Shown one piece after another: positions 24,066 through 36,692 of a stretch of 64,000 bases of DNA. Position 1 is the first letter of the stretch, and the number at the start of each line of letters is the position of its first letter. Under the pieces are notes generated by a model. It had not been told where the DNA came from, searched no databases, and was given only the letters and a program-made list of their open reading frames with translations. A program made the translations under genes and the position numbers. The stretch spans positions 124,001-188,000 of the forward strand of contig NZ_LUTS01000003.1 in NCBI RefSeq assembly GCF_001597735.1. Reading direction: 5' to 3'. The stretch comes from Neptuniibacter pectenicola (lineage in GTDB: Bacteria > Pseudomonadota > Gammaproteobacteria > Pseudomonadales > Balneatricaceae).

Positions 24066-24182
24066 ATGACGCTTAATTATTTTTACGAATTATGGTCTGC
24101 CGTCATTCTACTTATCTTGTTCTTTGTCGACGGCTACACGCTGTTTTTGCGTGAGCGGTTTCCGCTCAGGTGGGTGAGCTAA
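24066..24182 (+). CDS. Possible small membrane protein (doubtful)
   Basis: A 38-codon frame starting MTLNYFYELWSAVILLILFF would give one strongly hydrophobic helix followed by a short positively charged tail (LRERFPLRWVS). The frame is open further upstream. It lies in the 462-base gap between ssb and the histidine kinase gene, which otherwise shows only the ssb terminator. There is no convincing ribosome binding site and I recognise no family. It may be a chance frame. Confidence 0.2.
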   Translation: MTLNYFYELWSAVILLILFFVDGYTLFLRERFPLRWVS

Positions 24183-24318
24183 TGTGATCGGTTAACGCTC
24201 ATTTTGTGAGTATGCGCTATGATTAACCCAGTGTTTTGCTCTGTTTATGGCATGGTTCTATTCTTGCTACCATCTTTTACACGTAGAGATTATCTTGTCC
24301 TAATAATAGGGTTTGCCT

Positions 24319-26061
24319 TTGAGTCATGATCATTCAGTTGTTCGGCATATAAGATCACAGGAAAGTGATACTGCCGTTGATGTCGACGTTGTACCGTATG
24401 GCACGTCAAAAAATCGCTTGGCCTCCAAATATTTATGGCTCTCCCTATTAGTCGCCTTAATACCTTTAATTGGCTTTGCGAGTTTGTACGATTCCTATTT
24501 CTCCCAGTTGGTAACCCGTCTGACCGAAGAGCAGCTTGCGACACGCGTGGCCGCCACACAAAATGAGTTTCGTGTATTTATCCGTGAACGGAAATTTGAG
24601 CTGCTAGCGCTGGCGGACCAGTTTGATAATCCCAATTTATTTGTGCCTTCCGGTCGACAAAAAATCTCCTCCGAACTAGAGAGTCTATTGCGCTTACAGG
24701 TGGATGCGAGAAGTGTGTACGGTGTCGTTTTTTTTGATGAAAAGGGCGAGGTTGTATGGACCTTTCCTGAAGAGCGGCAAGCGGCGCTAACGGGGCTGGA
24801 AAGTATATCCGAGTTTGAAGGAACGGAGCTTATTGGCCCTTCACCTTTCTCCATCGAGCAGCCCTCGGGGGTTGTTTTACGAATCGCTGAACATCTGGCT
24901 CCGCGCTCGGGCCGTAAGGGGAGTATCGGTTTTTTTCTAAGGTTTAATTCATTAACAGAGATTTTGCAGGGGTTGGACCAAGGGACTGCCTTTCGTGTGC
25001 TCCTTCAAGCGGGTGATGGGCAGGCGTACGATGTGGTTGGTCAGCCGGTTACAATGACGAAGGTTGCTACCCAGCGCTTTAGTTTACTGCCGGGTTGGTC
25101 GTTACTGGTCATGCAGGATCGTGAGTTGGTGATGTCGCCTGTTGAAAGGATGCGTTATTGGCTGATTATTTTAATGATCTTTACGGTTGCCGGGTTGTTT
25201 TGGCTACATATGAGTATTTCTCGCCGGTTGAATCGACAAGTTGAGAGCCTAATTGATAGCGTTGAAAAGGTGGCACTGGGTAACTTAGAAACGCCGGTTG
25301 CCAATGTTCAAGGGGTTGAGATGCTGCGCCTTAGGCAGGCGATCGAACGGATGCGGCGTCAACTGAAAACGTTTATTCGATCGACCTTGGCCATAGAGCG
25401 ACAAGCAACGCTCGGTCAGTTAGCTGCAGGGTTGGCGCACGATATACGTAACCCACTCACCACTATCCGTACGACGGTGGCCGCTTTGGCTCGGCGAGAA
25501 ACAAATCCAGAGAATAAAGAGATGATGGGGCTGGTTGAAGAGGAGATCGATCGCGTTAATGATGTGCTCGAAAACCTCCTTAACTTTGCCCGCCCTCGTG
25601 ACCCGTTAGCCAGTAAAATTGACGCAAAAGAGTTGCTGAATGGGATCGTTGCTTTAGTGGGAGCATCGGCCCGTAATCAAAGTATTGAGTTGCGTGTGAC
25701 GTGTGCATCCTCCCTCGCTTTTTGGGCGGATGAAGGGCATGTCAGGCAAGTATTAATGAACCTGTTACTGAATGCGCTTGAGGCGATGTCTGTTCAAGGC
25801 CGTTTGATTCAATTGGATGCATGTCAAAAGGGCGATGAGGTTGCGTTGTCTGTTTGTGACGATGGGCAAGGCATGCCCGAAGATATTTTGGCTCATATTA
25901 TGGAGCCTTTTTACACAACCAAATCCGCCGGTACCGGCTTAGGGCTAGCAATTTGTAACACGCTGATTAAAAGTAATGGTGGGCGTATGAGCATTGATAG
26001 CATCAAGGGTAAAGGCACAACTGTTACGGTGTTTTTGCCTGTTGCAAAGGCTCAGGAGTAA
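24319..26061 (+). CDS. Membrane sensor histidine kinase (NtrB-like class)
   Basis: Likely autophosphorylates and passes phosphate to the response regulator encoded next. From the TTG at 24319 (7 bases after AGGG) it is about 580 aa; a TTG two codons earlier is also possible. Layout: N-terminal transmembrane helix around residues 38-57, a periplasmic domain of about 220 residues with a Cache/PDC-like strand pattern (VYGVVFFDEKGEVVWTF), a second transmembrane helix around 279-299, HAMP linker, and dimerisation helix with phospho-accepting His374 (LAAGLAHDIRNPLTTIR). The ATPase domain has the N box NLLLNALEAM and G boxes DDGQGMPED and GTGLGLAIC. Signal not known; the neighbouring binding proteins suggest a small periplasmic solute. 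Confidence 0.9.
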   Translation: MSHDHSVVRHIRSQESDTAVDVDVVPYGTSKNRLASKYLWLSLLVALIPLIGFASLYDSYFSQLVTRLTEEQLATRVAATQNEFRVFIRERKFELLALADQFDNPNLFVPSGRQKISSELESLLRLQVDARSVYGVVFFDEKGEVVWTFPEERQAALTGLESISEFEGTELIGPSPFSIEQPSGVVLRIAEHLAPRSGRKGSIGFFLRFNSLTEILQGLDQGTAFRVLLQAGDGQAYDVVGQPVTMTKVATQRFSLLPGWSLLVMQDRELVMSPVERMRYWLIILMIFTVAGLFWLHMSISRRLNRQVESLIDSVEKVALGNLETPVANVQGVEMLRLRQAIERMRRQLKTFIRSTLAIERQATLGQLAAGLAHDIRNPLTTIRTTVAALARRETNPENKEMMGLVEEEIDRVNDVLENLLNFARPRDPLASKIDAKELLNGIVALVGASARNQSIELRVTCASSLAFWADEGHVRQVLMNLLLNALEAMSVQGRLIQLDACQKGDEVALSVCDDGQGMPEDILAHIMEPFYTTKSAGTGLGLAICNTLIKSNGGRMSIDSIKGKGTTVTVFLPVAKAQE

Positions 26062-26067
26062 TTATTA

Positions 26068-27423
26068 ATGAATAAGGCAATATCCGTTCTGGTCATTGAT
26101 GATGAACGTAATTTAGTACGCAGTATTGGATTTTCACTGCGTGATGAGGGAATGCTTGTTAGCGGTGCGTATACGGGGAACGAGGGTATTGAACAAGCAA
26201 AAATATTAAGCCCCGATGTGGTGCTGTTGGACCTAGGGTTACCGGATATTTCGGGTATCAAAGTATTGGTCCAGCTGCGGGCCCAGCATCCGGATCTTCC
26301 CGTTATTATGATTTCGGCCCACGGTGATACGCGATCTGCTGTTAAAGCGGTGAAAGAGGGCGCGATTGATTACATCACTAAGCCGTTTGATATTGAAGAG
26401 CTAATCTTACTGATTCGACGCAGCACAGAACGGATTCGCATGTTGCGTGAGATCCGCTTTTTGAGAGAGAAAAACACGGAAACAGGCCCCTTAGTGGGCA
26501 GTAGTCCAGAGATGACGGCCTTACGTGATGCGATTGAGCGGGTTGGGCAAAGCTCAGGTAAAACCGTATTGATAACAGGCCCTTCTGGCACAGGAAAGGC
26601 GCTGGTTGCACGTGCTCTACATGATGTGCGCTTTACCGATGCGCCGTTTATTGAGGTCAACTGTGCGGCCCTACCGGAACAATTGATTGAAGCGGAGTTG
26701 TTTGGTGCAGAACGGGGAGCCTATACCGGGGCTAATCAACGCCGCGCAGGGCTGATTGATTTAGCCGATGGCGGTACTCTGTTTTTGGATGAGATCGGTG
26801 AGATCCCCCTTCATCTTCAAGCTAAATTACTGAGCTTTTTGGAAAATCGAAACTATCGTCCGGTGGGCGCAGGGCGTGAACGGCAGGCGAATGTGTTTGT
26901 TGTGGCGGCGACAAACTGTAATTTAAAAGCGAACGTTGAAGCCGGTACCTTTAGAGCCGATCTCTTTTATCGTTTAAATGTGTTGCCTGTTGATATTCCT
27001 GGGCTGTCTGAGCGGGATAGGGATGTCACGTTATTAGTGGCTCATTTTAGTGAGCTGTTTGCTCAGCAGGAGCATTGCGAACCTATTGAGCTGGATGAGG
27101 CGGTGCTCAATGTGCTCGAAAAATATGATTGGCCGGGTAATATTCGAGAGTTAAAAAATCTGATGGAGCGCTTAACCATCCTCTATCCGGGTCAATCTAT
27201 CACGGTTGATATGCTGCCTACGGAGTTCCATGAAGGCTTCCGTGTGGCACCGACGGTTAAAGATGATTACCGCGAGTCTGTTGAGGACCATGAACGGCAA
27301 TTGATTTTAGATGCGCTAAAAGAGTCGGATTGGCGTAAAGGGTTAGCGGCTGAAAAGCTGGGAATCTCACGTCATGCTCTTAAACGCAGAATACAACGGT
27401 TGGATTTGGAGAATGAGGAATGA
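26068..27423 (+). CDS. NtrC-family sigma54-dependent response regulator
   Basis: Phosphorylation-controlled activator of sigma54 RNA polymerase, 451 aa. Receiver domain residues 1-120 with the acidic pair in LVIDDERN, phospho-accepting Asp55 (VVLLDLGLPD) and the conserved lysine in ITKPFD. AAA+ domain: Walker A GPSGTGKA at 171-178 (the usual form is GESGTGKE), sigma54-contact loop GAYTGA at 217-222 (usually GAFTGA), Walker B GGTLFLDE at 235-242. A Fis-type helix-turn-helix (AAEKLGISRHALKRRIQRL) ends the protein. It starts 6 bases after the kinase gene with a good AGGAG site and overlaps the following gene by 4 bases. Confidence 0.95.
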   Translation: MNKAISVLVIDDERNLVRSIGFSLRDEGMLVSGAYTGNEGIEQAKILSPDVVLLDLGLPDISGIKVLVQLRAQHPDLPVIMISAHGDTRSAVKAVKEGAIDYITKPFDIEELILLIRRSTERIRMLREIRFLREKNTETGPLVGSSPEMTALRDAIERVGQSSGKTVLITGPSGTGKALVARALHDVRFTDAPFIEVNCAALPEQLIEAELFGAERGAYTGANQRRAGLIDLADGGTLFLDEIGEIPLHLQAKLLSFLENRNYRPVGAGRERQANVFVVAATNCNLKANVEAGTFRADLFYRLNVLPVDIPGLSERDRDVTLLVAHFSELFAQQEHCEPIELDEAVLNVLEKYDWPGNIRELKNLMERLTILYPGQSITVDMLPTEFHEGFRVAPTVKDDYRESVEDHERQLILDALKESDWRKGLAAEKLGISRHALKRRIQRLDLENEE

Positions 27424-28658
27424 TCGTCAGGCTGATCGGCATTTTCTTATTACTATTGAATACCGTTGAGGCGGAAGAGCTGGCATTAGGTGCCTCTAAA
27501 GCAGACGCGCAAGCAACCGTGGGCTGCCTTTTTCCGATGGGCGGCCGAGGTGGTATATATGGGCAAGACAGTGTGACAGGGATCAAACTGGCTTTTGAGC
27601 ACCTGAAAAAGCAGCCGCTGCCATATCCGCCTATTCGTGTTTTAGTATCTGATAGTAGCTCTAAGGCCTCTAAAGCGGCACGTCAAGTCCGTAACTTTGT
27701 GCGGAAAGATGGCGTCCGTTTCATTTGTGGCGTGGTGAATTCAGCGATTGCGTTACAGGTGGCTGAAGTGGCTGAAGAGGAGAAGGTCTTTTTTATCGGG
27801 ACTGATCATGCCTCATCTAAGCTTACCCGAGGAAAAGTACGAGATTACTATTTCCGTGTCAGTAACAATGCAGAACAGTCGATGCAGGCGGCCGCGATTT
27901 ACATTAAGAAAAAGTTTGCGCGAGGTCCCCGTGCTCAGCCTTTAAAGCTGGCATATATTGGGCCCGATTATGATTATGGCTATCAAGCATGGAAAGACCT
28001 TCGGGCGAGGCTGGACGCTGAAGGGGTTAACTATCAGGTTGAGACGGTACTTTGGCCAAAGCTCTATGAGCCGGATTACTCCGCTTATTTGAGAGCCTTG
28101 GTTGATAAGAAAGTCGATTTAGTTGTGAATGCCCTATGGGGCGGGGACCTGGTTGCCTTTATTCAGCAGGCCAACCAAACGACGCTTTTTGAGCATGCCC
28201 GTTTTGCTAACTTTGATACCGGTGGAAATTATGAGGTGCTATCGGCCTTAGGTGAAGATATGCCTGAAGGATTGATTCTGTCATCGAGGCACCATAATAA
28301 CTGGCCACAAACGGATTATAATACGTGGTTTGTTGAACGCTTTCATGCGTTAACTGGGCGTTATCCCTCATACGCTGCGGAGGGGGCTTATGCCGGTATC
28401 TTGGCGATATCTGAAGCACTGCGCGTGGCGGGTCCTGAGGCCAGCGATCAAGCGTTACGAGATGCATTAAGTTCCCTGCATCTTAAACTGCCGGAAGATC
28501 CCGAGGGTTTCATCTCCTTTATGAACCCTCTTAATCACCAGTTGCAGCAAGTGATTGCTATAGGTGAAACGGTTCCTGATCAGCGTTTTTTGCCCGCACG
28601 GATGATGTTAGGCAATTGGATGATTTACCACCCGCAGCTGTCGAATCAGCCGGAGTAA
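27420..28658 (+). CDS. Periplasmic binding protein linked to the two-component system
   Basis: A type I periplasmic solute-binding protein of the Leu/Ile/Val (Peripla_BP_6) family, 412 aa. A short signal peptide (MIVRLIGIFLLLLNTVEA, predicted cut before EEL) is followed by LFPMGGRGGIYGQDSVTGIKLAFEHL, the family opening. It overlaps the regulator stop codon (ATGA), so it belongs to the sensor operon rather than to the transporter operon that follows. That placement suggests it presents ligand to the kinase's periplasmic domain. A role as an alternative binding protein for the importer remains possible. Confidence 0.85.
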   Translation: MIVRLIGIFLLLLNTVEAEELALGASKADAQATVGCLFPMGGRGGIYGQDSVTGIKLAFEHLKKQPLPYPPIRVLVSDSSSKASKAARQVRNFVRKDGVRFICGVVNSAIALQVAEVAEEEKVFFIGTDHASSKLTRGKVRDYYFRVSNNAEQSMQAAAIYIKKKFARGPRAQPLKLAYIGPDYDYGYQAWKDLRARLDAEGVNYQVETVLWPKLYEPDYSAYLRALVDKKVDLVVNALWGGDLVAFIQQANQTTLFEHARFANFDTGGNYEVLSALGEDMPEGLILSSRHHNNWPQTDYNTWFVERFHALTGRYPSYAAEGAYAGILAISEALRVAGPEASDQALRDALSSLHLKLPEDPEGFISFMNPLNHQLQQVIAIGETVPDQRFLPARMMLGNWMIYHPQLSNQPE

Positions 28659-28745
28659 GTAAACCTGCTCATATTGAATCGTGCAGCGATGGCTGTGCGT
28701 AGCGCTTTTGTATTCTGCACTCTCTTTAGATGAATCCTTTCCTTT

Positions 28746-28801
28746 GGTTGATCGCTCGCGCCTCGTTGAGGCGCTCATGCTTGAGCGGTTATCGATCAAC
28801 C
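28746..28801. promoter_or_regulatory. Cluster of palindromes, candidate upstream activating sequence
   Basis: GGTTGATCG (28746-28754) is matched in reverse complement by CGATCAACC (28793-28801). Between them lie GCGCCTC/GAGGCGC (28758-28764 with 28768-28774) and GCTCA/TGAGC (28773-28777 with 28782-28786). The block is about 85-140 bases upstream of the sigma54 promoter, the usual distance for NtrC-type enhancer sites. It could also contribute to termination of the sensor operon, but no T run follows directly. Confidence 0.55.
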
Positions 28802-28883
28802 TACCTGTTGTTTATTTTTCTGTTTTTCTGTTTTTATTAATATTTGTCTTATAAAACAAATAGTTAGAATGTTGTTTTGTTTT

Positions 28884-28899
28884 TGGCATATGGTTTGCT
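28884..28899 (+). promoter_or_regulatory. Sigma54 (RpoN) promoter for the transport and oxidation operon
   Basis: TGGCAT, five bases, TTGCT: GG and GC dinucleotides are 10 bases apart as required, with one mismatch to TGGCAC-N5-TTGCW. Transcription would start near 28910, about 80 bases before the binding-protein gene. The preceding operon encodes an NtrC-type activator. The rest of the 333-base gap is AT-rich with no gene. Confidence 0.8.
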
Positions 28900-28991
28900 C
28901 AACTCCTTGTCGAGTAGTGCAGTGAAGGGGCGCGAGGATGTCGCTCATTCTGCTTTTAACTATAACGATAAGAACGATAAGGCGAAAAATA

Positions 28992-30281
28992 ATGTTGATA
29001 CCATTTGCTAAAAAGTCCGCGTTAGTGGGTTTACTTGTAGCTTCTGCGGTTGCTCAGCCGGTTATTGCTGCTGATGACTATAAATTAGGTTTGGTTACTT
29101 TCCTTTCTGGTGGTGCGGCCGGACCTTTTGGTGTGCCAGCACAGAATGCTGCGAACCTTGTGCTCGAAACATTGAATGAAGGGGCGTTGCCTGCGCCGTA
29201 TAACGTGAAGGGGATTAATGGTCGTACCATTAAGCCTATTTATGTCGATGAAGCTGGGGGCGCGACTAAGCAATCCTCAGAATATCGTAACTTAGTTGAA
29301 CGCCAAGGTGTTGATGCGGTTGTGGGTTATATTTCGTCAGGCGATTGCCTCGCGGTGCCTGCGGTTGCTGAAGAGCTAAAAACCCTAACCGTGTTGTTTG
29401 ATTGTGGTACGCCTCGTGTATTTGAAGATAACTCATTTAAATACGTTTTCCGTACAGGTCCGACAACAACCATGGATAGCGTTGCTGCGTCCTACTACAT
29501 CAAAGACATTTTCCCTAATTTGAAAGCGGTGTCTGGTATTAACCAGAACTACTCGTTTGGGCATGAGTCTTGGGCTGATTTCTACGGTTCATTAAAAGGT
29601 TTGCAGTCTGATATAGTTGTGCCAACTAAGCAGTTCCCTAAAATATACGCAGGCCAGTATGGCGCAGAAATTTCTGCACTGATGGTGAACTCAGCTGATG
29701 TTATTCACTCCTCTTTCTGGGGTGGTGATATGGAAGCCTTCCTACTTCAGGGTGCTGCACGTGGTCTGTTTGAAGATCAAACTGCCTTACTGACAACGGG
29801 TGAAAGTGCGATGTACCGTTTGTCTGATCAGATTCCTGAAGGCACGATCTTAGGCGGTCGTGGTCCATTTGGTATTTACGCGCCGGATAATGCGCTGAAC
29901 CGTTGGTTCCGTGATGCTTACAGCAAACGTTATGGCACTCAGCCAACGTACCCTGCTTATAAAATGGTTCAAGGTATTCTTGGTTTAAAACTTGCGACAG
30001 AACAAGCCGCGGCTAAGGTTTCTGGCCAGCCGACGACTGAAGACGTTGTGTCCGCGTTTGAGTACCTTGAATATGAAGGTCCAGGCGGCAAGGTGTCTAT
30101 GAATATGGGTAAAGGCCATCAGGCAAGCATGGAAATGGTTTATGGCCGTTATGCGCTTAAAGATGGTAAACCTGCTGTAACTGATGTTCGTCGCTATGCA
30201 GCTGAATGTGTTAACCCTTCCGATGATATGCCTGCCAATGAATGGATTGAAAAAGGCATGCCTGGCGCTAAATGTAACTAA
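28992..30281 (+). CDS. ABC importer periplasmic binding protein (Leu/Ile/Val or urea-type family)
   Basis: Solute-binding protein of the importer encoded downstream, 429 aa from the ATG at 28992. This start follows AAGG at 9 bases and directly begins a standard signal peptide (MLIPFAKKSALVGLLVASAV, cut after VIA); an in-frame ATG 18 codons upstream gives an unlikely leader. Mature part begins ADDYKLGLVTFLSGGAAGPFG. The sequence is of the Peripla_BP_5/6 family, closer in pattern to UrtA/amide-type proteins than to LivJ. First gene behind the sigma54 promoter. Ligand unknown. Confidence 0.88.
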   Translation: MLIPFAKKSALVGLLVASAVAQPVIAADDYKLGLVTFLSGGAAGPFGVPAQNAANLVLETLNEGALPAPYNVKGINGRTIKPIYVDEAGGATKQSSEYRNLVERQGVDAVVGYISSGDCLAVPAVAEELKTLTVLFDCGTPRVFEDNSFKYVFRTGPTTTMDSVAASYYIKDIFPNLKAVSGINQNYSFGHESWADFYGSLKGLQSDIVVPTKQFPKIYAGQYGAEISALMVNSADVIHSSFWGGDMEAFLLQGAARGLFEDQTALLTTGESAMYRLSDQIPEGTILGGRGPFGIYAPDNALNRWFRDAYSKRYGTQPTYPAYKMVQGILGLKLATEQAAAKVSGQPTTEDVVSAFEYLEYEGPGGKVSMNMGKGHQASMEMVYGRYALKDGKPAVTDVRRYAAECVNPSDDMPANEWIEKGMPGAKCN

Positions 30282-30291
30282 ATGCGCATCC

Positions 30292-30326
30292 GACAAGCTG
30301 GCGTCACGCTGGCTTGTCTTTTTTTT
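30292..30326 (+). terminator. Terminator-like attenuator between binding protein and permease genes
   Basis: GACAAGC (30292-30298) pairs with GCTTGTC (30312-30318), extended inward by GC and wobble pairs to about 12 bp, followed by eight T. It sits 11 bases after the binding-protein stop. Such partial terminators commonly make binding protein in excess over membrane subunits. Confidence 0.8.
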
Positions 30327-30357
30327 GCCCTTTTTTTGTAAATCTGGAGCGTTGCTC

Positions 30358-31254
30358 ATGAAATTGGTAATTGCGATGTTGATGGATGGCGTTATTTACG
30401 CCTCCTGGCTTTTTGTAATCGCAGCCGGCCTAACTCTCATCTACGGTGTGATGAGAATCCTTAATATGGCCCATGGTAGCTTTTATGCTATTGGTGCTTA
30501 CGGCGGTGCCTCGCTGGTGGGGTTTTATTTAGCGGGTGGTTATCCACCGTGGGGAGCTTATTTTATGCTGCTAGGGGCTGCCCTCATTGGCGGAACCATA
30601 GTAGGACTTCTGATCGAACGTGGTCTGTTAAGGATGATGTACGGTCGTGACGAAGTGGTCATGATTTTGGTGACCTATGCGATTTTATTAATACTGGAAG
30701 ATGTTATTAAGCTGATCTGGGGCGTGGATGCGTATTTTGCCTATCAGCCATATACCCTTTTAGGACGAACAAAGCTGGCCGGCTTATCGTTCGCAAATTA
30801 TGACATCTTGTTGATTTTTGTATCAGCACTGATCTGTTTTGTACTTTGGTGGGGACTGAATAGAACCCGCAAAGGTAAGTTATTACAAGCGGTGATTCAT
30901 GATCGTGATACCGCTGCTTTCCTCGGTATTAACGTCACACGTATGTTTACTGTCACGTTTGTCATCGGCGCTGTTTTAGGTGCGTTGGCGGGTGCATTGA
31001 CGGCTCCAGGTATCTCCGTCATGCCGGGCATAGGTGTTGAAGTTATTATTTTGGCGTTTGCTGTTGTGGTAATTGGCGGCTTAGGCAGTGTAGGGGGCGC
31101 GTTACTTGGTGCCTTAATTGTTGGGCTGGCCCGCTCTGCGGCGGTACACCTTTACCCTGATGCTGAGTTGTTTGTTATTTATGGTGTGATGGGGTTAGTA
31201 CTTGCGTTCCGTCCTCAGGGCCTCTTTGCCATTGCTACCGCGAGGAAAATTTAA
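30358..31254 (+). CDS. ABC importer permease, LivH type
   Basis: Inner-membrane channel subunit, 298 aa from the ATG at 30358, which follows GGAG at 8 bases. Multiple hydrophobic segments; the N-terminal AAGLTLIYGVMRILNMAHGSFYAIGAY is typical of LivH/UrtB proteins. The C-terminal AFAVVVIGGLGSVGGALLGALIVGL is the cytoplasmic coupling region that contacts the ATPase. Pairs with the LivM-type subunit encoded next, two bases downstream. Confidence 0.92.
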   Translation: MKLVIAMLMDGVIYASWLFVIAAGLTLIYGVMRILNMAHGSFYAIGAYGGASLVGFYLAGGYPPWGAYFMLLGAALIGGTIVGLLIERGLLRMMYGRDEVVMILVTYAILLILEDVIKLIWGVDAYFAYQPYTLLGRTKLAGLSFANYDILLIFVSALICFVLWWGLNRTRKGKLLQAVIHDRDTAAFLGINVTRMFTVTFVIGAVLGALAGALTAPGISVMPGIGVEVIILAFAVVVIGGLGSVGGALLGALIVGLARSAAVHLYPDAELFVIYGVMGLVLAFRPQGLFAIATARKI

Positions 31255-31255
31255 C

Positions 31256-32194
31256 ATGAAATATGCAACGACGATGATTATAGGGGCAGGTATCGCGTTA
31301 TTAGCGGCTGGCCTCTTTATGCCGGGATGGTTGACCTTTTTATTAACCTTAGCCTTCGCTAAAGGGCTTGTTGTGATGGGGCTTCTGCTGCTGATGCGCG
31401 CAGGGTTAGTCTCATTTGGTCAAGGTCTCTACTACTGCCTAGGTGCATACTGTGTTGGTATCGCTGGCGACTATTTTGAAACCCAAAATGCACTGCTATT
31501 GATCTTACTTGCGGTCGTGGTTTGTGTTGCCCTAGCGGCGGTTATTGGGCTGCTGCTATGCCGTTACAGAGATATATTTTTCGCCATGTTCTCGATGGCG
31601 TTCTCGATGATCCTTTATGGTGTGCTGGTTAAAAGCTCTGCCTTTGGTTCATCCGATGGCTTTAATGTTAAGCCGCCCTTGTTATTCGGTTGGACGCCTA
31701 CAGGAGAAAGTGGCCCCTTCCTTGCCTACGGTTTAGCGGTTGTCGCGCTTGTTGGGGTGGGTATCTTTGTTTGGCGCTATCTTCGTTCCCCAATGGGTTA
31801 TGCCGGTGAGGCGGTTCGTGAGAACGAAATTCGTGTCGAATACCTGGGTGCTTCGGTGCGTCGAATTATCTATACGAAATACCTGTTAGCCGCTGCAATG
31901 GCTGGACTGGGTGGTGGTATTACGGCGCTAGCGGCGGGTCACATTGATCCTGAAATGGCGTATTGGACGACCTCCGGTGAGTTTGTCTTTATTGCTTTAA
32001 TGGGTGGCGTCGGTCATGCGGCGGGTCCTGTTATTGGCGCGGTGTTATTTGAGCTGCTGCGAACCTATGCATTTCAAATATCCCCTTACACATGGCAGAT
32101 GATTTTAGGTATCTCGTTACTGGTCATCATTCTCTATCTACCTAAAGGTGTTTGGTCTCTGGTCGAGCGCGTAACGAAAGGTAAGCCATTATGA
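31256..32194 (+). CDS. ABC importer permease, LivM type
   Basis: Second channel subunit, 312 aa from the ATG at 31256 (AGGA site 9 bases upstream). About eight to ten hydrophobic helices; conserved LLMRAGLVSFGQGLYYCLGAY in the N-terminal half and FVFIALMGGVGHAAGPVIGAVLF near the C-terminus match LivM/UrtC. Overlaps the following ATPase gene by four bases. Confidence 0.92.
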   Translation: MKYATTMIIGAGIALLAAGLFMPGWLTFLLTLAFAKGLVVMGLLLLMRAGLVSFGQGLYYCLGAYCVGIAGDYFETQNALLLILLAVVVCVALAAVIGLLLCRYRDIFFAMFSMAFSMILYGVLVKSSAFGSSDGFNVKPPLLFGWTPTGESGPFLAYGLAVVALVGVGIFVWRYLRSPMGYAGEAVRENEIRVEYLGASVRRIIYTKYLLAAAMAGLGGGITALAAGHIDPEMAYWTTSGEFVFIALMGGVGHAAGPVIGAVLFELLRTYAFQISPYTWQMILGISLLVIILYLPKGVWSLVERVTKGKPL

Positions 32195-32973
32195 GTGCTT
32201 TATTAGAAACACGTTCATTGGCACGTAATTTTGGCGCTGTTACGGCGGCGGCTGATATCGATGTCACGATTAATGCAGGTGAGATTGTTGGTGTTATTGG
32301 TTCAAACGGTGCGGGTAAAACCACCTTTATCAATATGGTAACCGGCTACCTTGCGCCCAGCAGTGGTGAGATTTTATTTAAAGGTAAAAGCATTGTTGGG
32401 AAAAACCCTCGCCAAGTTATGCGTGCGGGTATCTGCCGTTCATTTCAGGTCGCACAACTGTTTCCTGAATTGACGGTGCTGGACAATGTCTTGATCGCTT
32501 ACGGCATCATGAAACACAAGATCTTGCCGTTGATGAGTCCCTTAGCAACAAAAGCCAATATTCAGCAGGCGGAACAGCTGTTGGAAGAGTATGGCATTAC
32601 CAGTTATATGGCTGAAACGGTTGTAACCTTGCCTCAGGGTGTTAGGAAGCTGCTTGATATCGCTTTAGCTATGTTGCGTAAACCTGAAATCTTACTACTG
32701 GATGAGCCGACTTCAGGTGTGGCCATTGACGATAAGTTTGACCTGATGGACACCGTGATGCGAGCTGTACGTAAGTCAGGTGCAGCGGTGCTGTTTGTTG
32801 AACATGATATGGAAGTGATTGCGCGTTATTCAACGCGTCTCATTGCTTTCTATGATGGTCGAGTATTAGCCGATGGTGCAGTAAGTGACGTCATGAATGA
32901 TGAAAAAGTAAAAGAGCTTGTGACAGGCCACCACCTAGATATCGATTACGAACAGGAGGTGCAACATGCTTAA
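32191..32973 (+). CDS. ABC importer ATPase, LivG type
   Basis: Cytoplasmic ATPase subunit, 260 aa. Walker A GSNGAGKTT at about 37-45, FQVAQLFPELTVLDNVLIA Q-loop region, Walker B ILLLDEPTSGV, switch histidine in LFVEHDME. The signature motif reads LPQGVRKL instead of the usual LSGGQ type, so the composite ATP sites may be unequal. Starts within the permease stop codon and overlaps the second ATPase gene by 8 bases. Confidence 0.92.
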   Translation: MSALLETRSLARNFGAVTAAADIDVTINAGEIVGVIGSNGAGKTTFINMVTGYLAPSSGEILFKGKSIVGKNPRQVMRAGICRSFQVAQLFPELTVLDNVLIAYGIMKHKILPLMSPLATKANIQQAEQLLEEYGITSYMAETVVTLPQGVRKLLDIALAMLRKPEILLLDEPTSGVAIDDKFDLMDTVMRAVRKSGAAVLFVEHDMEVIARYSTRLIAFYDGRVLADGAVSDVMNDEKVKELVTGHHLDIDYEQEVQHA

Positions 32974-33625
32974 GTTGTCATCGATTAATACAAATATTGC
33001 CGGCACACCTATATTACGTGATGTTAATTTGGCCATTGAACCGGGTGTTCTTGTGGGTCTGATTGGTCGTAACGGTGCAGGTAAAACGACACTGATGCGG
33101 ACCGTAATGGGTTTGCTTACGCCAGAGTCGGGCAGTATTACGATTGGTGGTCAGGATATGACGGACTTAGCGCCTCATTTTAGATCCCAAGCTAAAGTTG
33201 GCTACATGCCAGAGGATCGCCAGCTGGTACCTACACTAACGGTGGAGGAAAACATTCTTATACCTGCGTGGGCAAATGCGCTATCTGGTGCGGAGGCTCG
33301 TTTGGCATGGGTGTATGAGCTGATGCCGGAAGTCGAAGCGTTTGCTGGGCGCAAAGCATTACAGCTATCCGGTGGTCAGCAAAAACTGGTAGCCCTTGCG
33401 AGAGCGTTGATGACGGGGAGCCATATTCTGTTATTGGATGAACCTTTTGAGGGTGTAGCCCCCGCGTTATCACGTCGATTAGCCAGTGTTTTGCATACGT
33501 TGAAAGATGAAGGCCTGACGGTGTTGTTGTCGGAGTCAGATTACAGCCATTCGGCTGATTTGGTTGACCAGATTTACACCATAGAGCGAGGTGCTGTTGC
33601 GGCACAGGAAGGAGCGGTAAAATGA
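32966..33625 (+). CDS. ABC importer ATPase, LivF type
   Basis: Second ATPase subunit, 219 aa. Walker A GRNGAGKT at 34-41, canonical signature LSGGQQKLVALARALM, Walker B ILLLDEPFEGVAP. The position of the switch histidine is occupied by LLSESDYSHS, with serine where LVEQN/LVEH is common, similar to LivF-type proteins that lack a histidine there. Overlaps the alcohol dehydrogenase gene by four bases, tying transport to the enzymes. Confidence 0.9.
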   Translation: MLKLSSINTNIAGTPILRDVNLAIEPGVLVGLIGRNGAGKTTLMRTVMGLLTPESGSITIGGQDMTDLAPHFRSQAKVGYMPEDRQLVPTLTVEENILIPAWANALSGAEARLAWVYELMPEVEAFAGRKALQLSGGQQKLVALARALMTGSHILLLDEPFEGVAPALSRRLASVLHTLKDEGLTVLLSESDYSHSADLVDQIYTIERGAVAAQEGAVK

Positions 33626-34782
33626 GTGATTTTGTTTTTAATTTTCCTAAACAGCTAATTTGTAAACCTGGGTCTGCTAAAGAGTTAGGTGATATTTGTC
33701 TGCGTACTATAGGTAAACGTGTTCTGGTTGTAACTGACCAAGGGATTGTGAATGCAGGCTTGTTACAGCCGGTACTCGACACACTTAAAGCGGCGGGTGT
33801 TGATGCGCTGGTTTTTGATCAGGTTCTAGCTGACCCTGCTGCATCGATCGTATTGACAGCAACCGAGCAAGCAATCTCTGCCGGTATAGATGGTGTTATT
33901 GGTTTAGGCGGTGGCTCATCAATGGATGTTGCCAAATTGGTTGCACTGCTCGCGAAAGGTGAAGAAACATTAGACGAGATCTACGGGGTTAATATGGTGA
34001 AAGGGCAGCGTTTGCCTTTGATCCAGATCCCTACGACCGCAGGTACGGGTTCAGAAGTCACGGCTGTATCGATTATTACGGTTGGCGAAGGCGAGAAAAA
34101 AGGCGTTGTATCCTCGCAATTGTTACCTGACCTAGCCTTGCTGGATGCTGAATTAACCTTAGGTTTACCATCGATGGTCACGGCGACCACCGGTGTCGAT
34201 GCGATGGTGCATGCCATTGAAGCGTATACCTCGGCTAGCCCGAACCATAATCTAATTTCTGATGCTTCCGCCAAAGAGGCCTTATTGTTATTAGGCGCTA
34301 ACATTGAATCTGCGGTGCACGATGGCAGTGACCTTCAGGTGCGCTCTAATATGTTATTAGGGTCCATGTTAGCGGGGCAAGCGTTCGCGAACTCTCCTGT
34401 GGCTGCGGTTCATGCCTTAGCTTATCCATTGGGTGGGATTTATCATTTACCTCATGGTTTAACTAATGCGCTAGTACTGCCCCATGTGATGCGATTTAAT
34501 CAATCGGCTTGTGCTGAACAATATGCTGAATTAGCGCCGTTGGTTTTCCCTCGTTTAGCCGATATCACTGATGTTGCTGAGCGTAGTCATGCTTTTATTG
34601 AAGGGTTAGATCAGCTGAACCGTTCATTGGGAATATTACCGCGCCTACGGGATTATGATATTGAAGAATCCGCGATTACTGTTTTAGCGCAAGATGCGAT
34701 GAAGCAAACACGGTTGTTGGTGAATAACCCACGTGAAGTGACGCTTGAGGATGCGACAGCTATCTACCAAGCTGCATGGTGA
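33622..34782 (+). CDS. Iron-containing alcohol dehydrogenase (group III)
   Basis: NAD(P)-dependent oxidation of an alcohol to an aldehyde, 386 aa. Cofactor loop GLGGGSSMDVAK at about 94-105 and PTTAGTGSEVT. Metal ligands are intact: Asp193, His197 (GVDAMVHAIEAY), His264 and His278 (IYHLPHGLTNA). The family includes ethanol, lactaldehyde/propanediol and 4-hydroxybutyrate dehydrogenases, which cannot be told apart by motif. Sandwiched between a transporter and a GabD-like enzyme, an omega-hydroxy acid substrate is reasonable but unproven. Confidence 0.93.
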   Translation: MSDFVFNFPKQLICKPGSAKELGDICLRTIGKRVLVVTDQGIVNAGLLQPVLDTLKAAGVDALVFDQVLADPAASIVLTATEQAISAGIDGVIGLGGGSSMDVAKLVALLAKGEETLDEIYGVNMVKGQRLPLIQIPTTAGTGSEVTAVSIITVGEGEKKGVVSSQLLPDLALLDAELTLGLPSMVTATTGVDAMVHAIEAYTSASPNHNLISDASAKEALLLLGANIESAVHDGSDLQVRSNMLLGSMLAGQAFANSPVAAVHALAYPLGGIYHLPHGLTNALVLPHVMRFNQSACAEQYAELAPLVFPRLADITDVAERSHAFIEGLDQLNRSLGILPRLRDYDIEESAITVLAQDAMKQTRLLVNNPREVTLEDATAIYQAAW

Positions 34783-34789
34783 GGCCGGT

Positions 34790-35227
34790 ATGTCTGATTT
34801 AAAAACATTGGAAACCCGTGCTGACTATCAGCATTTCATCACTATTCCCACCCGTTGGATGGATAATGATGTGTATGGTCACGTGAATAATGTGCAGTAC
34901 TACAGTTATTTTGATACGGCGGTTAACCGCTACCTTATCGATCAAGGCGTATTGGATATTCATAAAAGCGACGTGGTCGGGCTGGTGGTTGAAACCCAAT
35001 GTCGATATTACAGCAGCATCGCTTTTCCTGATGATGTGATTGCGGGTATTGCGGTGACTAAACTGGGTAACAGTTCTGTTCGATATGAAGTGGGTCTCTT
35101 TTTAGGCGATACACAGAAACCGTCGGCACAAGGGCACTTTGTTCATGTCTATGTTGATCGGGCTAGCCAAACGCCAGTCGCGCTGCCCGCAGCGTTACGT
35201 GCAACGTTACAGAAAATTGCGGTATGA
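34790..35227 (+). CDS. Hot-dog fold acyl-CoA thioesterase (4HBT family)
   Basis: Small thioesterase-type protein, 145 aa from the ATG at 34790, 7 bases after the dehydrogenase stop. The signature TRWMDNDVYGHVNNVQYYSYFD contains the catalytic-type Asp27 and the HVNN loop of the 4-hydroxybenzoyl-CoA thioesterase family; the second half ends with FVHVYVDRASQTPVALP. It may release CoA from an intermediate or rescue dead-end acyl-CoA in this pathway. Substrate unknown. Confidence 0.85.
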   Translation: MSDLKTLETRADYQHFITIPTRWMDNDVYGHVNNVQYYSYFDTAVNRYLIDQGVLDIHKSDVVGLVVETQCRYYSSIAFPDDVIAGIAVTKLGNSSVRYEVGLFLGDTQKPSAQGHFVHVYVDRASQTPVALPAALRATLQKIAV

Positions 35228-35237
35228 GGACTTTTAA

Positions 35238-36692
35238 ATGCAATTAAATAATCCTGCTTTATTACAACATCAGTCGTTTATTGATGGCCAGTGGTGTGAC
35301 GCCAGTAACGGTGAAGTTTTTGCCGTAAAAAATCCTGCTACAGGTGATGTGATTGCCGAGGTTGCTGATCTAGGCGCAGATGAGACGACTCGTGCGATTG
35401 CGGCGGCCGAAGCTGCACGCGCTGACTGGAGTGCTTACACAGGTAAAGAGCGCAGCGCATTGCTACGTCGATGGTTTGACCTGATTATTGAAGCGCAAGA
35501 TGATCTTGCGGTACTGATGACGTCAGAACAGGGTAAGCCGGTGAATGAAGCACGTGGGGAGGTCTTGTATGGCGCCTCATTTGTTGAGTGGTTTGCTGAA
35601 GAAGCGAAGCGTGTTTATGGGGATATTATTCCGCCACATGGTCGCGATAAACGTTTGTTAGTACTGAAACAGCCAATTGGTGTTGCTGCCGCCATTACGC
35701 CGTGGAACTTCCCTATTGCTATGATTACTCGCAAGGTGGCGCCAGCTCTAGCGGCGGGCTGCCCTGTAGTGATTAAGCCATCGGAATTGACGCCGCTGTC
35801 CGCGTTAGCTTTAGCGCAATTGGCACAGGAAGCGGGTTTCCCTCAAGGGGTGTTTAACGTTGTAACATCCACAAATGCACCGGCCGTGGGTAAGGTGTTG
35901 TGTGCGGATTCTCGTGTCCGTAAATTATCCTTCACGGGTTCTACTCCGGTGGGTAAATTATTGGCAGAACAGTGTGCCAGTAATGTGAAGAAGGTTTCTT
36001 TGGAGTTGGGAGGCAATGCACCTTTTATTGTCTTTGACGATGCGGATCTTGATGCGGCTATTAGCGGTGTTATTGCATCAAAATTCCGTAATGCGGGACA
36101 AACCTGTGTCTGTACTAACCGTATCTTTGTTCATGAGGCGGTTTATGATGCCTTTGCTGAGAAATTAAAGACGGCGGTACACGCCCTTGCTGTCGGTAAT
36201 GGGTTTGATGAAGGGGTTGCTATTGGTCCGCTTATTGATGACCGCGCGCTGCATAAAGTTGAAAGCTTAGTTAAAGACGCGTTGGATAATGGCGCTACTC
36301 TGCTAAGTGGCGGTGAGCGTTTTGAGAGTGTGACTAATGGTTACCGTCCTACGATTTTGAGTAATGTTGATAATGCTATGCGCATTGCTCAGGAAGAGAT
36401 CTTTGGTCCAGTGGCAACGTTGATTCCTTTTACTGAAGAAGCTGACGTTGTTCAGATGGCTAATGATACGCCGTTTGGATTGGCTGCTTACTTCTATTCC
36501 CGTGATATTGGACGTGTTTGGCGCGTCTCTGAAGCGCTGGAATACGGTATGGTGGGTATTAACGAAGGTATTATCTCTACAGAGGTTGCGCCGTTTGGCG
36601 GCATCAAAGAGTCAGGTTTAGGTCGTGAAGGTTCTAAGTATGGTATCGATGATTATGTCGAGATTAAATACCTTTGTATGGGTGTGAATTGA
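35238..36692 (+). CDS. gabD: NAD(P)-dependent succinate-semialdehyde dehydrogenase (GabD-like)
   Basis: Oxidises an aldehyde to its acid, 484 aa. Catalytic Cys290 (NAGQTCVCTNR) and general base Glu256 (SLELGGNAPFIVFDDADL) are present with the spacing of GabD, as is ITPWNFPIAMITRK. Alignment by eye to E. coli GabD is close over the whole length, including RKLSFTGST and the C-terminal GREGSKYGIDDYVEIKY, so succinate semialdehyde is the best guess. Last gene of the sigma54-controlled operon; a terminator follows. Confidence 0.85.
   Translation: MQLNNPALLQHQSFIDGQWCDASNGEVFAVKNPATGDVIAEVADLGADETTRAIAAAEAARADWSAYTGKERSALLRRWFDLIIEAQDDLAVLMTSEQGKPVNEARGEVLYGASFVEWFAEEAKRVYGDIIPPHGRDKRLLVLKQPIGVAAAITPWNFPIAMITRKVAPALAAGCPVVIKPSELTPLSALALAQLAQEAGFPQGVFNVVTSTNAPAVGKVLCADSRVRKLSFTGSTPVGKLLAEQCASNVKKVSLELGGNAPFIVFDDADLDAAISGVIASKFRNAGQTCVCTNRIFVHEAVYDAFAEKLKTAVHALAVGNGFDEGVAIGPLIDDRALHKVESLVKDALDNGATLLSGGERFESVTNGYRPTILSNVDNAMRIAQEEIFGPVATLIPFTEEADVVQMANDTPFGLAAYFYSRDIGRVWRVSEALEYGMVGINEGIISTEVAPFGGIKESGLGREGSKYGIDDYVEIKYLCMGVN

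Follow-up and report, generated by a model that had tools for sequence, protein, structure and literature searches.

The stretch of DNA analysed here, which we call the window throughout, is 64,000 nucleotides long and carries on its forward strand, in this order, a kinase gene, a regulator gene, SBP1, an interval that holds a putative promoter and a palindrome, SBP2, and a run of transporter and oxidation genes:

24313-26061, + strand: sensor histidine kinase gene (Pfam HAMP, HisKA and HATPase_c; the start codon is uncertain, 24313 or 24319)
26068-27423, + strand: NtrC-type response regulator gene (receiver, Sigma54_activat with GAYTGA, HTH_8), the proposed binder of the dyads described below
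27420-28658, + strand: SBP1, periplasmic binding protein gene (Peripla_BP_6), whose reading frame overlaps the end of the regulator gene
28992-30281, + strand: SBP2, first gene of the operon that we propose to be controlled (ATG at 28992 preferred over 28938 on the basis of relatives)
30301-36692, + strand: the remainder of the proposed operon, namely two permeases, two ATPases, an Fe-ADH, a thioesterase and an SSADH-family aldehyde dehydrogenase

The nearest named relatives belong to Neptuniibacter, with 98% identity in SBP2. At the cut-offs used, relatives of SBP2 occur in 5 of 57 near genomes (the own genome included), in 1 of the 369 genomes of the class, this one being the own genome itself, and in 6/292, 3/148 and 22/297 genomes of three other groups (centre genomes included); the distribution of the operon is thus patchy, with scattered occurrences among distant proteobacteria. 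SBP1 is possibly a sensory partner or else a component of the transporter. Judged by promoter position, some lineages have it in the kinase-regulator operon and others in that of the transporter, and dyads often precede its transcription unit in either arrangement, which would fit a sensory role.

The regulator scores above the cut-offs for PF00072 (receiver), PF00158 (sigma-54 AAA+) and PF02954 (Fis-type HTH), and it carries the motif LLDLGLPD with the phospho-acceptor Asp, the Walker A and B motifs GPSGTGK and GGTLFLDE, and the loop GAYTGA. Its scores fall below the curated cut-offs for NtrC (395.4 vs 558.6) and AtoC (400.9 vs 714); the protein is NtrC-type, but by model score neither an NtrC nor an AtoC equivalog. 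Around it lie the following putative control features:

28884-28899, + strand: -24/-12 (sigma-54) promoter element TGGCATATGGTTTGCT, with a transcription start predicted at about 28910
28782-28798, + strand: proximal 17-bp operator dyad TGAGCGGTTATCGATCA, 13/14 of the consensus TGAKCGSNNNSCGMTCA, its centre at about -120 from the predicted start
28749-28765, + strand: distal degenerate operator site TGATCGCTCGCGCCTCG, 11/14, of which only the left half-site is good
28746-28801, no strand: the nested palindrome of the initial annotation, made up of both tandem dyads and their flanks
24152-24168, + strand: operator dyad TGAGCGGTTTCCGCTCA, rank 1 of 63,984 positions and the sole 0-mismatch dyad in the 3.63-Mb genome
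24185-24201, + strand: second operator dyad TGATCGGTTAACGCTCA, 1 mismatch, rank 3 of 63,984, beginning 33 bp downstream of 24152
24253-24268, + strand: candidate weak -24/-12 element TGGTTCTATTCTTGCT for the kinase-regulator operon, rank 107 of the -24/-12 matrix scan

The initial annotation had read a sigma-54 promoter with exact GG-N10-GC geometry in 28746-28899, and the letters bear this out, with GG at 28885-28886, GC at 28897-28898 and exactly ten bases between them. TGGCATATGGTTTGCT is the sole 0-mismatch match to TGGCAYNNNNNTTGCW in the 64-kb window, in which matches with at most two mismatches number 73 vs 68.6 expected from shuffles, and the 3.63-Mb genome holds 17 exact matches vs 2 for a reversed control pattern. 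With a matrix derived from 31 distinct promoters of other lineages, the element ranks 1 of 127,970 window positions. Since its score is nevertheless reached somewhere in 2 of 30 shuffled windows (for both the dyad and the -24/-12 matrix scans of the window, control shuffles were made within 200-bp blocks), the motif alone is not decisive; what is decisive is its position and its conservation. The TGG and the TTGC are invariant across six aligned sequences (the window and five relatives). The own genome contains rpoN (PF04552, E 2.1e-69), and, counting from the predicted start near 28910, the untranslated leader of SBP2 would span about 80 bases. Just upstream of the -24 box, at 28854-28866, stands AAACAAATAGTTA, of which a near-identical form, AAACAAATGGTTA, is found in the related loci L007, L008 and L009.

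Upstream of this element the 9-bp arms reported by the initial annotation, GGTTGATCG and CGATCAACC, are present exactly, at 28746-28754 and 28793-28801, and they lie 83-138 bp upstream of the -24 box, that is, at enhancer distance and where they had been placed. The nested palindromes are therefore real and in the right place; relatives, though, point to a 17-bp dyad as the unit rather than a 56-bp palindrome. This dyad recurs in upstream regions of the relatives with the consensus TGAGCGSNNNSCGCTCA and is usually paired, and the 9-bp arms turn out to be the outer half-sites of such a pair: the left half of the distal dyad and the right half of the proximal one, the distal site beginning exactly 33 bp upstream of the proximal dyad. 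Near relatives supplied a first consensus, drawn by eye, which then served to choose the training sites of a matrix; this matrix comprises 74 distinct sites, and the six Oceanospirillaceae loci, those of the window's family, are excluded from it. With this leave-lineage-out matrix the top three of 63,984 window positions are 24152 (score 26.7), 28782 (19.4) and 24185 (17.9); the next window score is 9.8, and the maximum over 30 shuffled windows is 16.9. The distal site at 28749 comes out at rank 61 of 63,984 with a score of -0.3, while the GA.CG of its left half-site is invariant across six aligned sequences (the window and five relatives). The distal site is thus weak in this genome, and it is uncertain as a second binding unit of the SBP2 promoter. 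The site that ranks fourth, CGCGAGGATGTCGCTCA at 28931-28947 (9.8), is dyad-like and closely follows the predicted start; L007 and L008 keep its right half-site, and it is possibly a downstream operator half-site.

The whole 3.63-Mb genome contains 13 dyad sites with at most one mismatch. Three belong to the locus studied here and are intergenic; each of the other ten falls within a mechanical ORF (109-590 aa) and lacks a second site at a distance of up to 60 bp. Since these near-exact sites elsewhere are single and inside ORFs, the regulon looks local. With at most two mismatches allowed there are 136 sites in the genome vs 49 for a reversed control, so that weak single matches mean little.

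Comparison of the same interval among relatives, which the initial annotation had proposed, shows that dyads, regulator and promoter type co-occur across related loci. The scan with SBP2 gave 102 relatives, and the loci analysed are the best 80 of these 102, in 67 of which the regulator gene is part of the locus. Dyads matching 12/14 or more stand upstream in 66 of these 67, the exception, L036, having an 11/14 site. Over the 878 kb of regulator-bearing loci there are 121 dyads of at least 13/14, vs a mean of 3.0 in shuffled loci (the shuffles preserve single-base composition only). Most of the 121, namely 104, fall into gaps of the stretch from kinase to SBP2; a further 14 precede the kinase by no more than 700 bp, 2 are inside homologous ORFs, and 1 lies outside all of these. 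Successive dyads are spaced by 30-34 bp in 51 of 60 cases and by 41-42 bp in another 8, with one at 1446; these spacings amount to about three or four helical turns, which would put the paired sites on one face of the helix. The occurrence of dyads in 66/67 regulator loci, together with the ranks 1-3 of the window's own sites, supports the adjacent NtrC-type protein as their likely binder, as had been suggested from the window's letters.

In most of these loci the regulator carries a GAFTGA loop, and in ten it does not; we refer to the two kinds as loop-bearing and loop-less. The kind of promoter follows the loop. For each locus the upstream region richest in dyad signal was picked before -24/-12 scoring, and the scores use a set of sigma-54 weights; on this footing, within the best 80 of 102 relatives, a -24/-12 score of at least 13.8 is found in 56 of 57 loop-bearing loci (L014, with GAYTGS, counted among them) vs 0 of 10 loop-less loci, the one exception below threshold being L034 with 11.3. 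At a cut-off of 15 the counts are 50/57 vs 0/10. Fisher's test on the association gives 4.4e-11, a value that ignores kinship: the ten loop-less loci form one clade and one change on the tree (100/99 support), and because the loss of GAFTGA is a single event, 56/57 vs 0/10 represents one evolutionary contrast. Two loci among further stretches, L105 and L137, are additional loop-less members.

The helix-turn-helix of the regulator is strongly conserved, in all ten loop-less loci too, and in these proteins GALPGL and GSLPGL stand in place of the loop. In PMC3162934, Pro at the fourth loop position is described as a favoured change in GAFTGA-less proteins, and HupR, TyrR and DhaR, which lack GAFTGA, are described as working with sigma-70; PMC10274813 describes the same use of sigma-70 for the NtrC of R. 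capsulatus, which is without GAFTGA. By their letters, GALPGL and GSLPGL fit the Pro preference given in PMC3162934. A search for rpoN in 18 genomes finds it in all eight that are loop-bearing (the own genome and 7/7 others), and in the ten loop-less genomes detects none in five, a fragment of 23.2 bits in one and a clear gene in four, where several of the genomes are metagenome assemblies in which absence is weak evidence. In the genome of L022, a metagenome-assembled Magnetospirillum, the DNA-binding domain of rpoN lies in two abutting pieces (G068:C2:773347-773824), frameshift-like, and the L022 locus itself has a good -24/-12 element.

What takes the place of the -24/-12 element in the loop-less clade? 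When twelve loop-less loci (the ten plus L105 and L137) are aligned gap-free on the proximal dyad, T stands at +36 in 12/12, G at +38 in 10/12 and T at +64 in 11/12, vs 16, 18 and 6 of 57 loop-bearing loci at the same three positions; a TTG begins at +36 in 7 of the 12. These bases are likely to represent a TTG of -35 type and the final position of a -10-like hexamer, with a 17-bp spacer between the two elements. Summed over the columns 17 to 86 bp past the dyad start, the information amounts to 29.9 bits vs a mean of 15.8 for registers shifted at random, none of 300 of which reaches 29.9; part of this is owed to shared descent, and the hexamers are mostly poor sigma-70 matches. A best-hexamer scan downstream of the loop-less dyads, made with sigma-70 hexamers, gives a mean of 7.17 vs 7.30 in shuffles, and the core becomes visible only in the dyad-anchored register, where it consists of a TTGAAG-like hexamer, 17 bp and a hexamer ending in T, fixed 19 bp from the proximal dyad. 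To go by this alignment, a sigma-70 reading of the loop-less promoters is likely, and the dyads would then lie at about -63 and -94, as the sites of class I activators do. We consider it probable, with appreciable room for doubt, that in a Roseobacter/Stappia-related alphaproteobacterial clade an orthologous regulator-operator-operon unit has switched sigma factor, having lost GAFTGA and the -24/-12 element, kept the dyads and gained a sigma-70-like core. In ten of the twelve loop-less loci (L026, L036, L041, L046, L048, L063, L066, L077, L105 and L137) a GGGAGGA motif occurs 88-96 bp after the proximal dyad start, in the predicted leader; in L046 and L077 an upstream CCTCCC could, by eye, pair with it.

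Returning to the window, the pair of dyads upstream of the kinase gene is absent from the initial annotation and is better than the pair before SBP2. The dyads at 24152 and 24185 are centred about 119 and 86 bp before the start predicted from TGGTTCTATTCTTGCT, near 24279; the TGG and TTGC of this element do not vary in an alignment of the window with four relatives (five sequences). In 22 of 67 assessed rows (the window included; L041 is too short to be assessed) the 500 bp before the kinase hold a site of 12/14 or better, namely in the window, L007-L011, all nine assessed loop-less loci, L027, L039, L080, L085, L024, L058 and L043, the site of L043 being a doubtful single 12/14. In the reversed loci L024 and L058 the kinase-upstream region is shared with SBP1. 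The 45 rows that have no kinase-side site include the near relatives L012-L014. This pattern of sites suggests that the kinase-regulator operon may be autoregulated in some lineages, this one included.

Could the regulator then act mainly as a repressor, at the kinase promoter or at both promoters, rather than as an activator? Two of the best sites in the window, ranks 1 and 3, stand before the kinase, and autorepression is common in such two-component systems. On the other hand, the regulator has an intact GAYTGA loop and intact Walker motifs, the window has a good -24/-12 element, and the sites stand at enhancer distance, all of which speaks against this; we regard a mainly repressing role as improbable.

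A second alternative is that a different DNA-binding protein, such as a global regulator, occupies the dyads in place of the adjacent response regulator. The association of dyads and regulator does rest on linkage and co-occurrence. However, the dyads accompany the regulator orthologue even where its gene lies away from the locus, and they are missing where it is missing. Thirteen of the loci have no regulator of their own. Three of these, L020, L033 and L055, carry dyads and a -24/-12 element, and their genomes encode a 55%-identical regulator elsewhere (the orthologue in the L055 genome, L153, at G1176:C15:33284-34627, contains one in-frame TGA). Among the other ten, nine have no upstream site above 11/14 and one, L054, is too short to judge; the genomes of these ten yield a regulator match of at most 43% identity, or none at E<=1e-90, L019 with its 36% regulator-like match being counted as without regulator. 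A further 25 stretches, a sample that omits four match places (in G1083 and G1036, and the second matches of G898 and G1062), were scored in the same way: dyads are present in all five that have a regulator, and each of the five has the kind of promoter that its loop would predict, three of them being independent since L133 and L138 are near-copies of L064 and L080. The 20 further stretches that have no regulator within the stretch (L135, L146 and L152 end at contig ends) show no dyad pair and one single 12/14 match, in L143; L135 has a -24/-12-like match of 14.7. Moreover, near-exact dyads outside ORFs occur in the window's genome at this locus only, and the helix-turn-helix of the regulator is conserved even where the GAFTGA loop has been lost. 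Binding by a different protein is thus very unlikely, and the adjacent regulator remains our preferred candidate.

An equally small chance is left to the reading of the palindromic block as structured RNA or as a 3' hairpin of the upstream operon, serving termination or RNA stability, instead of as an operator: the block sits between the SBP1 stop codon and the next promoter, folds as a single strand better than shuffles do (z -4.07), and its window structure pairs 76.9% in relatives vs 24.6-55.6% when the partners are slid by 1-3 columns (a contrast to be expected when the structure derives from one of the rows), but the terminator scan finds no site at the block, Rfam gives no match in 28400-29200 and tRNA only in ten related loci, pair counts over six sequences are no higher than in column shuffles (105/500 as high, counting paired cells), relatives fold differently, dyads still precede SBP1 in at least two loci where the kinase and regulator genes are reversed (L024 and L058), and dyads are present upstream of the kinase gene as well. 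Neither a family match nor covariation marks the block as a structured RNA or riboswitch, and we have rejected this reading, for which fold, Rfam, terminator scan and pair counts together leave single-sequence foldability.

An IHF-assisted arrangement gains no clear comparative support. Scored with an IHF consensus, the window has an IHF-like site matching 8 of 9 positions at 28854-28866, between the dyads and the promoter, which is equalled in 27 of 100 shuffles; over 57 regions, sites between dyads and promoter are not enriched (mean 6.44 vs 6.28), and in L029 and L085 the IHF-like score beats all 100 of their own shuffles.

To what signal might such a system respond? Since the entire kinase, used as the query of a fold search, brought up little other than kinase cores, its extracytoplasmic part was modelled alone (mean pLDDT 85.4). 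The fold search with this sensor model places KinD first, at a TM of about 0.6, with amino-acid chemoreceptors among the next, DctB (3e4o) at rank 49 and LuxQ at rank 50; as modelled, the sensor would resemble tandem-PAS/dCache domains. LuxQ uses LuxP as its binding-protein partner. By analogy, it is possible that the kinase senses its ligand directly, or that it does so through SBP1 in the manner of LuxQ-LuxP. As for the substrate, the aldehyde dehydrogenase lies above the SSADH-family cut-off (707.3 vs 646.35), and the Fe-ADH falls short of the cut-offs for the ErcA and 4-hydroxybutyrate dehydrogenase models. Our literature searches did not identify the system or its substrate, which is no proof that the system is undescribed, and the six dyad strings had no occurrence in the literature searched.

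We propose with high confidence, on comparative grounds, that the interval before SBP2 holds a sigma-54-dependent, enhancer-controlled promoter of an ABC-uptake and oxidation operon that is switched on by the local two-component system. The kinase (24313) would sense the substrate through its dCache-like domain, perhaps aided by SBP1, and would phosphorylate the NtrC-type regulator. The regulator would then assemble on the tandem 17-bp dyads centred at about -120 and -153 and, by means of its GAYTGA loop and ATP hydrolysis, open sigma-54 polymerase at 28884-28899, from which SBP2, the permeases, the ATPases, the Fe-ADH, the thioesterase and the aldehyde dehydrogenase would be transcribed; the second dyad pair, upstream of the kinase, would provide autoregulation. 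Sequence comparison brings out the promoter geometry, the dyads, their association with the regulator and the agreement of promoter type with the GAFTGA loop; binding by the regulator, its phosphorylation, the direction of regulation and the ligand are what we infer. The regulatory model that the initial annotation had sketched for the locus, a promoter, a site at enhancer distance and an adjacent regulator, has in this way gained comparative support. A guess made from one sequence becomes a model with specific predictions, and the transporter/oxidation operon acquires a defined pair of operator and promoter.

The proposed arrangement has well-known counterparts. In the DctB-DctD/dctA system for C4-dicarboxylate uptake, a dCache-type kinase and an NtrC-type regulator act through tandem upstream sites on a -24/-12 promoter, and our locus would share with it the dCache-type kinase, the NtrC-type regulator, the tandem sites and a -24/-12 promoter driving a transporter. 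It differs in that the transporter is of the ABC-uptake kind and is joined to an oxidation operon, in the different sequence of the 17-bp dyad, and in the additional periplasmic binding protein encoded with the two-component genes. The enhancer site of NtrC at glnA is TGCACC-N5-GGTGCA. Here too there is a 17-bp dyad, there are two sites, and sigma-54 would be acted upon at a distance; yet the letters of the site are others, the regulator scores below the NtrC model, and it is apparently a local rather than a global regulator.

By itself the control region is well supported and of an ordinary kind, to which our analysis adds a sharper anatomy and a second operator pair. It is in the loop-less clade that the comparison goes further. 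As in HupR, TyrR, DhaR and the NtrC of Rhodobacter capsulatus/Caulobacter (PMC3162934, PMC10274813), loss of the loop appears to accompany the use of sigma-70. Unlike those GAFTGA-less proteins, however, here both states occur among orthologues that share operator and target operon, which makes the change of promoter directly readable. If the sigma-70 reading is true, one and the same operator is a looping enhancer in one lineage, and in the other a site from which polymerase is contacted. The two operator states among orthologues would then constitute a natural experiment in which a promoter changes its sigma factor while its activator is kept, and the apparent change of sigma factor, as read from these sequences, would be an unusually clear comparative case.
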